The translations under genes were made by a program, and so were the position numbers. Of a stretch of DNA of 64,000 nucleotides, positions 24,534 through 61,257 are shown piece by piece. A model generated the notes under the pieces. It was not told the origin of the DNA, did no database searches, and worked only from the letters and a program-made list of their open reading frames with translations. This stretch comes from Mucilaginibacter geliditolerans (GTDB lineage Bacteria > Bacteroidota > Bacteroidia > Sphingobacteriales > Sphingobacteriaceae). Position 1 is the stretch's first letter, and each line of letters opens with the position of its first letter. The stretch is from assembly GCF_014200495.1 (NCBI RefSeq), contig NZ_JACHBY010000003.1, positions 620,001 through 684,000 on the forward strand, read 5' to 3'.

Positions 24534-24701
24534 TTTTTTGGGACAGGATACTATAACAAAGTTGCTATGATTTGTGATAATAAAAAATTAAAACTTGTAA
24601 TAGGCTATTTTAAGGTTAAATCTATTTTAGTGAATAGTTTAATGGACATAGCTATAGGTCGTTGCTGAAAATTGTTGATGAGGATAGGGAAATAAAAATA
24701 A

Positions 24702-25590
24702 GTCATGCTGAACTTGTTTCAGCATCTCACATGCTCAGTGTACATCTTTCAAGTATAAGCCAAGCAAGTTGCTCGTCCTATGAGATCCCGAAACAAGTTC
24801 GGGATGACGGGTGGGAGTTCAAAAAATACAGGTCATGCTGAACTTGTTTCAGCATCCCACATGCTTAGTGTACGTCAAGCAGGTTTAAACTAAGCAAGTT
24901 GCTCGTCCTATGAGATCCCGAAACAAGTTCGGGATGACGGGTGGGAGTTCAAAAAATACACGTCATGCTGAACTTGTTTCAGTACCCCACATGCTTAGTG
25001 TACGTCAAGCAGGTTTAAACTAAGCAACCTGCTCGTCCTACGGGATCCCGAAACAAGTTCGGGATGACGGATGAGAGTTCAAAAAATACAGGTCATGCTG
25101 AACTTGTTTCAGCATCCCACATGCTAAGTTTACGCCAAGCAGGTTTAAACCAAGTAACTTGCTCATCCTGTGAGATCCCGAAACAAGTTCGGGATGACGG
25201 ATGAGAGTTCAAAAAATACAGGTCATGCTGAACTTGTTTCAGCATCCCACATGCTCAGTGTACGTCAAGCAGGTTTAAACTAAGCAACCTGCTCGTCCTA
25301 TGAGATCCCGAAACAAGTTCGGGATGACGGATGAGAGTTCAAAAAATACAGGTCATGCTGAACTTGTTTCAGCATCTCACATGCTCAGTGTACATCTTTC
25401 AAGTATAAGCCAAGCAAGTTGCTCGTCCTATGAGATCCCGAAACAAGTTCGGGATGACGGATGAGAGTTCAAAAAATACAGGTCATGCTGAACTTGTTTC
25501 AGCATCTCACATGCTTAGTGTACGTCAAGCAGGTTTAAACTAAGCAACCTGCTCGTCCTACGGGATCCCGAAACAAGTTCGGGATGACGG
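24702..25590. repeat. array of seven 109-bp structured repeats at exact 130-bp period
   Basis: Units start at 24702, 24832, 24962, 25092, 25222, 25352 and 25482; each is 109 bp and they are separated by 21-bp spacers that are almost identical (GAGTTCAAAAAATACA core). Each unit opens with hairpin TGCTGAA-CTTGT-TTCAGCA and closes with ATCCCGAA-ACAAG-TTCGGGAT. The first 26 bases and the complement of the last 26 agree at 22 positions, so each unit has terminal inverted repeats. The centre varies between units. Units 1 and 6 are identical. The array ends 15 bp from the stop of the GIY-YIG gene. The preceding gap (24534-24701) shows nothing notable. Confidence 0.95.
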
Positions 25591-25605
25591 GCAGTTAGTG
25601 AGATT

Positions 25606-25902
25606 TTATGTTTTTAATTGATCTTTTAAATCTTTCATTTCAGGATTCATTGATTGAATTAACTTGATTTTCCAATCCTTATGCCAATTTTTCAATTGCT
25701 TTTCCCGGTCAATAGCATCAGTAATTCTTTCGAAGTATTCATAAAATACCAAATCATAAAGCTTATACTTTTTTACAAACGCTGACCCTTCGCCATTAAC
25801 ATGTTGCCATACTCTTGATTCAAGGTCGCTGGTTACACCGATATAAAATGTTGTTCTGTATTGGTTCGACATAATGTATATATGGCCTTGTTTGAATAGC
25901 AT
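25606..25902 (-). CDS. single-domain GIY-YIG endonuclease, 98 aa
   Basis: Complete GIY-YIG nuclease domain and nothing else. The first motif is YIMSN (Tyr9), the second TFYIGVTSDLESR (Tyr20-Ile-Gly, catalytic Arg30), and the metal-binding Glu67 is in DAIDREKQLKNW. The protein resembles UPF0213/YhbQ-type proteins, whose cellular role is poorly known. The active-site set is intact. The gene is enclosed by 109-bp repeats: seven begin 15 bp past its stop and two more lie upstream, the first 28 bp from its ATG. This suggests the repeats are its substrates or partners; that is inference. A shorter start at 25872 would lose motif 1. Confidence 0.92.
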   Translation of the reverse strand: MLFKQGHIYIMSNQYRTTFYIGVTSDLESRVWQHVNGEGSAFVKKYKLYDLVFYEYFERITDAIDREKQLKNWHKDWKIKLIQSMNPEMKDLKDQLKT

Positions 25903-25930
25903 ATTTTTTTCTAATAGTTAAAAATCTTCC

Positions 25931-26039
25931 GTCATGCTGAACTTGTTTCAGCATCCCACATGCTTGGTGTACATCTTTCAGGTGTAAACCAAGCAATCCG
26001 CTCATCCTGTGGGATCCCGAAACAAGTTCGGGATGACGG
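25931..26039. repeat. 109-bp repeat, unit 8 (right of the GIY-YIG gene)
   Basis: Same ends and length as the array units, but with its own centre. Its central arms TGCTTGGT / ACCAAGCA differ from TGCTTAGT / ACTAAGCA of units 2, 3 and 7 by a paired change that keeps the stem. Confidence 0.93.
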
Positions 26040-26053
26040 TTTGAAAAAGTCAA

Positions 26054-26162
26054 GTCATGCTGAACTTGTTTCAGCATCCCACATGCTAAGTTTACGCCAA
26101 GCAGGTTTAAACCAAGTAACTTGCTCATCCTGTGAGATCCCGAAACAAGTTCGGGATGACGG
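26054..26162. repeat. 109-bp repeat, unit 9, identical to unit 4
   Basis: Identical over all 109 bases to array unit 4 (25092-25200), although the GIY-YIG gene and four other units lie between them. It ends 22 bp before the stop of the S9 peptidase gene. The spacer to unit 8 is 14 bp, unlike the 21-bp spacers of the array. Confidence 0.93.
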
Positions 26163-26184
26163 GCGGTGATATATGGGCTATAAA

Positions 26185-29236: not shown

Positions 29237-29270
29237 CTTTATAAAGATAGAATTTGTTATTTAGAAAATC

Positions 29271-29326
29271 TAAAATATTTTTTATAAATCTAAAATATTT
29301 TTTATAAATCTAAAATCTTATATTTG
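29271..29326 (+). promoter_or_regulatory. higBA promoter region with 20-bp tandem repeats
   Basis: Two exact 20-bp AT-only repeats (29271-29290, 29291-29310; each TAAAATA, a T-run, then ATAAATC) plus a partial third copy run into TATATTTG at 29319-29326, a perfect -7 box. The HigB ATG lies 5 nt after it. The repeats occupy the place of a HigA operator. Confidence 0.55.
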
Positions 29327-29331
29327 TATAA

Positions 29332-29628
29332 ATGGTTGTTATCAGCTACGGAACGCTCCGTATTTATTTTGAACATCATGCTGATGCTGAAGATGCATTG
29401 AATAACTGGTATAGGTTAGCATTAATGGCAGATTGGGCAAGTTATCATGAAATGAAGAAAATGTTTAATTCGGTTGATGCAGTAGGTAACGACAGGTATG
29501 TTTTTAATATCAGGGGGAATAGTTACAGACTGATAGCGATGATATTTTTTGATATCAGAACAGTTTATATCCGTTTTGTTGGCACGCATGCTGAGTATGA
29601 TAAATTAAAAGATTGTTCGCTGGTGTAA
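29332..29628 (+). CDS. higB: HigB-family toxin (mRNA interferase), 98 aa
   Basis: Matches the HigB_toxin family along its whole length: MVVISYGTLRIYFEHHADAEDALNNWY, ADWASYHEMKKMF, and the conserved VGNDRYVFNIRGNSYRLI then VYIRFVGTHAEYDKL. Family members cleave mRNA on translating ribosomes. The toxin gene comes first, followed after 13 bp by its HigA antitoxin, the usual HigBA order. The ATG follows the -7 box so closely that the transcript may be leaderless. Confidence 0.93.
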   Translation: MVVISYGTLRIYFEHHADAEDALNNWYRLALMADWASYHEMKKMFNSVDAVGNDRYVFNIRGNSYRLIAMIFFDIRTVYIRFVGTHAEYDKLKDCSLV

Positions 29629-60642: not shown

Positions 60643-61257
60643 ATGATACGCAAACTTTTCATCCTGCTGGCAGTAATAGTTAGTGCCGCATATGCCTGCG
60701 GCGCACAGGGCAGGTACAAAATAAACCTTAACGCTTCAAACACTAAAGCAACCATTAGCTCGGTAGATATAGTGGTGAATAACACTAACATTTGTGTTAG
60801 CATGCACGGCAAAATAATTATCGCCCCTAACAATAACGTTAACGGACAAGGTGATATAGTCGCTACCTATTATGATCAATTTGATGGCCCGAATAATATT
60901 GGCAAGTTAAAATCAATAGGTGATATAGCTGTTACTTATTATGACCAATATGATGGTTTTGACAACATTGGGAAGCTGAAATCTATCGGCAAAATAGTAT
61001 TCACCTATTACGACAGGTTTGATGGTACCGATAATCCTGGCAAACTGAAAGCAATTGGCAACACCAAAATAACCTATTACGATAAATACGATGGTTTTGA
61101 TAACATTGGCAAATTGAAAACCGTAGGCAATACCACTATAACTTATTACGACAGGTTTGATACCTCCGAAGCTCCCGGCACAATAAAGCAGATCAGCGGA
61201 AATACACCCAACCTTAACATTCGTCGTTTGCAGGAGTTTAATGCTGATAATGATTAA
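60643..61257 (+). CDS. secreted repeat protein with five 23-residue repeats, 204 aa
   Basis: Signal peptide MIRKLFILLAVIVSAAYACG, then about 45 residues of unique sequence, then five tandem 23-residue repeats (residues 70-184) built on I-x-x-TYYD-x-[FY]DG-x-x-N-x-GKLK-x-I-G, then a short polar tail. The alternating pattern predicts a stacked beta structure. The acidic YYD and FDG positions could bind metal or sugar. No family known to me. Convergent with the PAS protein gene, 17 bp away. Confidence 0.8.
   Translation: MIRKLFILLAVIVSAAYACGAQGRYKINLNASNTKATISSVDIVVNNTNICVSMHGKIIIAPNNNVNGQGDIVATYYDQFDGPNNIGKLKSIGDIAVTYYDQYDGFDNIGKLKSIGKIVFTYYDRFDGTDNPGKLKAIGNTKITYYDKYDGFDNIGKLKTVGNTTITYYDRFDTSEAPGTIKQISGNTPNLNIRRLQEFNADND

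Follow-up and report, generated by a model that had tools for sequence, protein, structure and literature searches.

The locus considered here raises the question of what connects a small and intact endonuclease gene to the structured repeats that surround it on both sides, and what kind of genetic entity the two form together. It lies in the window, namely the whole stretch of 64,000 nucleotides that was analysed from Mucilaginibacter geliditolerans (contig NZ_JACHBY010000003.1, positions 620,001 to 684,000). The question also has a more general side. Among bacterial intergenic palindromes there are two large super-families, one of which carries a CGTC tag, and the portion available to us of the 2013 survey that describes it leaves open what mobilises these palindromes (Di Nocera et al., 2013; PMC3733652).

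Nine repeat units and a GIY-YIG gene

Nine units on the forward strand, at 24702–26160, surround the gene, with seven on one side and two on the other. The seven occupy 24702–24808, 24832–24938, 24962–25068, 25092–25198, 25222–25328, 25352–25458, and 25482–25588, and start at exact 130-bp steps, the period corresponding to a 107-bp unit plus a spacer; the tandem array as a whole spans 24694–25590 on the forward strand, and was scored by TRF as 6.9 copies of a 130-bp period with a 91% match. The seventh unit is located next to the 3′ side of the gene, and the other two lie at 25931–26037, next to its 5′ side, and at 26054–26160, with start-to-start spacings beyond the array of 449 and then 123 bp. 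Thus, the gene of the window stands between complete units and inside none of them.

Both ends of each unit form a hairpin, with a stem of 8 bp and a loop of 5 nt (at 24702–24726 and 24784–24808 in the first unit). The left end reads GTC-ATGCTGAA-CTTGT-TTCAGCAT, and the right end is its CCC-stemmed counterpart, such that the stem carries GCT at the left and CCC at the right in all nine units, each of which is a heterodimer; the right ends contain ATGACGG in nine of nine cases, that is, CGTC on the opposite strand. The ends form imperfect inverted repeats, with arms of 36–40 nt that are 75–83% complementary, whether taken from the same unit or from different units. The complementarity of the loops CTTGT and ACAAG follows from this symmetry. 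The initial annotation, made from the sequence of the window, had described nine units of exactly 109 bp, and was right about the count and the equal length; the length itself is 107 bp from hairpin end to hairpin end in all nine, with 109 bp being obtained when the GG trailing each unit is included. Its other structural observations—the imperfect terminal inverted repeats, the two end hairpins per unit, the complementary loops, the seven units at an exact 130-bp period with two more across the gene, and an intact single-domain GIY-YIG gene—were all reproduced.

Two internal-sequence haplotypes were observed among the array units (24702–25588), one in units 1 and 6 and another in the other five, a pattern that looks like exchange between units. 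In the relative G026, showing roughly 92% nucleotide identity to the genome of the window (G000), the array site holds a single unit, so that one and two units are placed around the GIY-YIG gene there versus seven and two here. The ORFs at 25820–26128 (reverse strand) and 25960–26169 (forward strand), encoding the peptides HPELVSGSH and KQVRDDG where they cross the palindromes, are probably spurious genes created by the repeats. Other repeats in the window include a perfect 20-bp tandem repeat of 2.5 copies at 29266–29316, just upstream of small ORFs at 29332 and 29642 that we take to resemble a toxin–antitoxin type pair, and two neighbouring arrays of 69-bp tandem repeats in coding-like sequence at 60849–61161.

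The gene itself (25606–25902, reverse strand) is an intact ORF of 98 residues that matches the Pfam GIY-YIG family (PF01541) with an E-value of 6.8e-15, above the cut-off. An alignment of 37 sequences shows Y8, Y19, G21, R29, H33, E66, and N85 among its invariant residues; of these, Y8, Y19, R29, E66, and N85 are presumably the catalytic-type residues of GIY-YIG nucleases. A fold search with an AlphaFold2 model of the protein (pLDDT 94.3) returned the UPF0213 protein BH0048 as the best match (E = 6.9e-4), with Slx1 and UvrC matching weakly (E = 0.02 or weaker), and the nearest solved sequences were those of the UPF0213 proteins EF2693 and BH0048 (E = 0.012). Slx1 is a branched-DNA nuclease, and the weak match of the predicted fold to it suggests structure-specific cutting by the GIY-YIG protein.

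Repeat families and GIY-YIG genes within the genus

The left-end pattern was found to have 47 exact matches in the 6.5-Mb genome of the window, nine at the locus and 38 elsewhere, versus none for a reversed control pattern, ruling out chance repeats. Thirty-one units read in stretches of G000 and G026 were 92 bp (n = 19), 107 bp (n = 9), 106 bp (n = 2), or 93 bp (n = 1) long. The base outside GTC varies at these units, being C on the left in 13 and G on the right in 13, and direct flank repeats of at least 3 nt were found at none of the 31, array units among them, by which target-site duplication is ruled out for this set. The stems covary, with all three variable pairs forming in 118 of 128 distinct ends by G-C/C-G and C-G/T-A swaps, and the loops of these 128 ends include 96 of CTTGT and 19 of TTTAT.

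The units of the window belong to what is here termed class A, and further classes were distinguished. A second palindrome class, GTCATTGCGAG, has 340 ends in G000 (control, 1), which exceeds the 126 class A ends found there with a degenerate pattern; among the matches listed, these GTCATTGCGAG ends are mostly in close inverted pairs. One pair of class B ends, 765 bp apart (L296 616–1381, G000:C1:910115–910880), encloses repeat-like sequence, and no recognisable gene was seen inside it when five stretches of the same genome were read.

Across 100 genomes of the genus, ends matching GTCATSCYGAAYTTRTTTCRGSA were present in 85, and a control pattern in none. A homologue of the enzyme was matched in all 100, and a member of its close subfamily (66–100% identity) in 27. 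The 27 genomes with the close enzyme contain a median of 29 GTCATSCYGAAYTTRTTTCRGSA ends and a minimum of 2, compared with a median of 5 in the 73 genomes without it, 15 of which have zero (p = 2.4e-6, with genomes treated as unrelated); many ends are nevertheless present in G061 (73) and G086 (52) despite there being no close enzyme.

The repeats and the gene are also physically associated. At least one unit end was found within about 110 bp of the gene (with up to six mismatches) for all 27 close homologues, and in 16 of the 27 the gene was placed by script inside an element with inward-facing ends. The ends of these gene-bearing elements read GTCATGCCGAACTTGTTTCGGCACCCCACA, followed by a weaker TGnTAnGT, and those of 20 gene-free units in the genome of the window read GTCATGCTGAACTTGTTTCAGCATCTCACA, followed by TGCCAAGT; the terminal consensus common to both kinds is strong over about 30 nt and weaker up to 38. 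Forty more distant genes of the genus (42–52% identity to that of the window) have GTCAT...ATGAC palindromes of other sequence classes at their borders. Overall, a class A, B, or C palindrome lies within 300 bp of the gene for 106 of 107 small GIY-YIG genes of the genus, whereas any class was found in 397 of 10,000 random blocks of the control (400-kb stretches of G000 and G026). These 107 genes are the best-scoring of the matches listed, taken downwards, leaving out weaker matches, the close copies G014:C50 and G011:209553, a broken copy in G080, and some others. An internal stop is present in 7 of the 107, and the median dN/dS is 0.085, from just 7 of 325 gene pairs, the other 318 being out of range. 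Under a strict paired-tag criterion (10 of 12 nt), 49 of 64 GIY-YIG genes were positive, namely 19 of 27 close and 30 of 37 distant ones (three of the 40 distant genes were left out, their flanks being too short), versus 3 of 812 control ORFs of 60–160 aa in the same stretches; random 290-bp intervals were positive in 157 of 40,000 cases. Some genes are missed by this criterion because ends with different stems fail it. The proximity of units to GIY-YIG genes, as opposed to unrelated DNA, which the initial annotation had proposed to compare, is thus borne out by both counts.

The association extends to the kind of palindrome. In a tree of 67 enzymes, each palindrome class corresponds to one clade (support 100/98, 99/94, and 98/91), and the number of class changes is 2, the minimum, versus a mean of 29.4 after shuffling, and none of 200 shuffles reached so low a number. 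Because reading of the first 67 flanks preceded the writing of the class patterns, 40 further genes served as a held-out set, for which the class predicted from the nearest enzyme was right in 39 of 40 cases, L291 among them by a tie; the class C pattern was tightened between the tree test and the held-out test, with labels unchanged. No class A, B, or C palindrome was found at the held-out gene L295. Enzymes of two classes coexist in several genomes, such as G033 (A and C) and G039 (A and B), and each is accompanied by the palindrome of its class; host background therefore does not explain the class match. The GIY-YIG gene and the repeats are linked, with the palindrome class following the enzyme clade in the genus; the link is general beyond the locus, and the gene often lies inside an element.

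Distribution and site differences beyond the genus

Among named genomes, the best 80 of 582 relatives of the enzyme were scanned, and, with 10 located too close to a contig end, 70 loci remained. GTC-tagged hairpins were found on both sides within 250 bp in 45 of these 70 loci versus 10 of 1,574 control intervals from the same loci, and on at least one side in 65 of 70 versus 292 of 1,574. The hairpin detector, when set to loops of 3–8 nt, misses 9-bp stems with 5-nt loops, and a limit of 10 nt was chosen after this had been seen; with loops of up to 10 nt, both sides were tagged in 52 of the 70 versus 21 of 1,574 control intervals. Seventeen of the 25 loci missed by the double-tag scan were read by eye, about ten having clear ends that the detector had overlooked and six being weak; loci without clear tags by eye were L161, L180, L184, L216, L228, and L238. 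The order of the tags in the 70 loci (from the best 80 of 582) was inward-facing in 27, opposite in 8, and other or missing in 35, and where both tags face inwards, the element measures about 373 bp. A Mantel test on 27 named loci gave a modest positive correlation (r = 0.349, a value reached in 11 of 5000 permutations). Doubly tagged loci come from Planctomycetota, Omnitrophota, and Moraniibacteriota records as well as Proteobacteria, although the taxon labels may err because many of the records are metagenome bins. Three Sphingomonadales loci (L200, L213, and L215) have the CTTGT hairpin end of the Bacteroidota class A units, and their enzymes were placed apart from the clade of the window on a quick tree with starred branches; this may reflect horizontal spread of the repeat, convergence, or one origin of the enzyme.

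Plasmid records matching the protein number 33, mostly from Alphaproteobacteria but also from Neisseria, Aeromonas, Photobacterium, Planktothrix, and Spirosoma. Tagged hairpins were detected on both sides in 9 of 14 plasmid loci read when loops of up to 10 nt were allowed, and in 5 of 14 with loops of 3–8 nt. Read by eye, two of these loci (L154 and L158) carry tags on either side, a variant resembling CCTC is present in L159, and the tags of L153 and L157 are unclear. The gene of L154, on a Planktothrix plasmid, is situated between an annotated MmeI-type restriction-modification gene and the DISARM gene drmA. A search of 50,697 phage records at an E-value of 1e-5 gave no match to the protein, and phage carriage is ruled out on that basis.

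Comparisons between relatives showed sites at which the element is present in one genome and missing from another. In the fnrL region of Sphingobium, a full element is found in L148, a solo palindrome of the two outer arms in L244 and L245, and a different sequence at the site of the element in L246. At the gltA–lpxB site of Sinorhizobium (L146), two tandem units are present versus a solo hairpin in strain K101, and the first of these units is an internally deleted copy in which the two ends and a 3′ portion of the gene are retained. Azospirillum lipoferum has an element between sufB and sufC, where three relatives show neither element nor hairpin. Between G000 and G026, two sites have a class A unit in one genome and a different GTCAT palindrome in the other, and a third site lacks the unit in G026, where the neighbouring sequence has diverged. 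Occupied and empty sites, as expected of a mobile element, were thus observed in Azospirillum, Sphingobium, Sinorhizobium, and the G000/G026 pair, all of them unpolarised. A solo hairpin at an empty site could be either a target or a scar, and the replacement of one class by another at a site would fit cutting of the resident palindrome. Within-genome gene pairs provided no clean case of transposition; L107 and L110 match over about 358 bp, comprising the gene and short flanks.

Interpretation and relation to known systems

Taken together, the locus is probably a copy of a small mobile element, with the GIY-YIG endonuclease gene as its sole gene and CGTC-tagged REP hairpins as its ends. The best reading of the nine units and of the dispersed 92- and 107-bp units is that they represent gene-free derivatives with the same ends, and it is quite probable that the GIY-YIG protein is the dedicated enzyme of CGTC-tagged repeats. 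At the level of sequence, the comparisons establish a common terminal sequence, presence/absence differences among relatives, and one internally deleted derivative; we infer that the element moves and that its nuclease nicks the units or mobilises them. Weighing against this reading are the many ends in some genomes that lack the close enzyme, the position of the window's gene between complete units, the loci with opposite tag order or unclear tags, the Sphingomonadales loci with the class A hairpin, the weakness of the fold match to Slx1, and the genes with an internal stop. The initial annotation had also suggested a small domesticated element. A mobile element that is live, or was until recently, is a better fit, because the close enzyme was found in 27 of the 100 genus genomes and empty sites occur in other genera. 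A purely local domesticated locus is ruled out by the same 27 genomes together with the relatives in named genomes.

With respect to the mechanism, the nuclease would recognise palindromes of its own class, as hairpin or cruciform, and cut them, and repair of the break would then place a copy of the element, or of its gene-free form, in the cut site, a cleavage-and-repair step that we regard as possible rather than probable. Solo hairpins would be the product of recombination between ends, and arrays, including that of seven units in the window, would arise when units are multiplied by unequal recombination. A wider and more speculative proposal, for which we would claim rather less, is that a bacterial class of mobile elements, so far unrecognised, occurs across many phyla; its elements would each have a lone GIY-YIG nuclease, which would cut resident CGTC hairpins and install its own element by repair, with palindrome families, each having its own nuclease, competing and replacing each other at the same sites.

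Other accounts of the gene and its palindromes have to be weighed against the mobile element. The gene could be a passenger adding little, carried by palindromic elements that are mobilised by RAYT or by host replication and repair; most units are gene-free, genomes that lack the close enzyme still retain units, and the genome of the window has seven Y1_Tnp matches. However, the palindrome class is predictable from the enzyme clade, dN/dS is low (few pairs being usable), and no tag lies within 0.8 kb of the match at any of the seven Y1 loci, which makes this account improbable; six of these RAYT-like loci have no tag within 1.5 kb, and the tags of the other, L252, lie more than 0.8 kb away. 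With units at the gene in none of the seven, RAYT as the local enzyme is ruled out. Spread of the gene alone, as a free-standing homing endonuclease entering alleles that lack it, with the palindromes as its preferred insertion or cleavage site, is suggested by GIY-YIG being a classical homing fold and by the solo hairpins of Sphingobium and Sinorhizobium relatives where the full element lies. Empty sites do exist, but in the genome of the window the gene copies are outnumbered by gene-free units that have matching ends (47 exact class A left ends versus two small GIY-YIG genes of the window's kind), and these units come in a few fixed lengths, 92 and 107 bp for the most part. Homing of the gene alone would not make such units, and we consider that account very unlikely.

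Just as little probability is assigned to a role in RNA or expression, in which the hairpins would be terminators or processing sites and the nuclease would act on them or be autoregulated through them. Covarying hairpins at gene borders would suit such a role, and the survey, in the portion available, regards many REPs as plausibly transcribed (PMC3733652), but the same ends are found on many gene-free units far from the enzyme, the protein belongs to the Pfam GIY-YIG nuclease family with conserved residues present, and the differences among relatives at their sites are insertion-like.

If the wider proposal of competing GIY-YIG elements is true, one mechanism would account for CGTC palindromes and, with them, the dRS3 repeats of Neisseria, which the available part of the survey places among them (PMC3733652). 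If the GIY-YIG protein is indeed the enzyme of these repeats, populations of short repeats in bacterial chromosomes would be maintained by a kind of enzyme other than the known transposases for such repeats, and a function would be provided for a large family of small GIY-YIG proteins. A class-matched enzyme reduces the mobilisation question to a testable pairing of a single 98-aa protein with a single hairpin.

The system may be compared with several known ones. Like an autonomous element and its MITEs, it has gene-bearing and gene-free copies with a common terminal inverted sequence, and one internal-deletion derivative; unlike them, it has separate hairpin ends with covarying stems, shows no target-site duplication at the 31 units, and lacks a transposase of any known family. 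Phage T4 Seg and Mob proteins are free-standing GIY-YIG homing endonucleases, resembling the present case in being encoded by a lone small gene in intergenic DNA, whereas the system of the window has hairpin ends and gene-free derivatives, and had no match in the phage records searched. The YhbQ/UPF0213 single-domain GIY-YIG proteins share the size and fold of the 98-aa protein, but the related E. coli gene yhbQ, which overlaps yhbS, has no tagged hairpin within 250 bp, unlike the enzyme gene of the window. In the REP/RAYT system, TnpA_REP is an HUH/Y1 tyrosine transposase and the tag is GTAG. There, as here, an enzyme gene is flanked by hairpin REPs and accompanied by many gene-free paired units, whereas the enzyme of the window is of the GIY-YIG type (PF01541) and the ends are GTCAT. 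The analogy with RAYT drawn in the initial annotation, of a similar arrangement with an unrelated enzyme, is therefore apt, and because the enzyme is unrelated, the system is not a member of REP/RAYT even if it would work alike.

No link between GIY-YIG enzymes and REP palindromes was found among the open-access papers listed, print elsewhere being possible; in the portions available to us, a RayT entry and a GIY-YIG gene appear, unlinked, in the same table of one paper (PMC9465073), and GIY-YIG is absent from another (PMC12306157). The repeats themselves find their counterpart in the CGTC REPs, which are described, in the available part of the survey, as having CGTC, TGTC, or CCTC at one end, a stem of 8–9 bp starting with AT, and a loop of 4–5 nt, and as forming head-to-head dimers, often heterodimers, in phyla including Bacteroidetes (PMC3733652). 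This tag, stem and loop, and heterodimer structure were all found in class A units; the GTC tag, AT-starting 8-bp stem, 5-nt loop, and head-to-head heterodimers are those of the window's units. The same part of the survey found transposase genes not to be associated with CGTC REPs, which were apparently without a dedicated transposase (PMC3733652). An association with GIY-YIG would correct this published negative, the lack of a transposase being no structural feature of the repeats: the CGTC REPs were published without one, whereas in the present data each palindrome class of the genus goes with GIY-YIG nucleases of its own.
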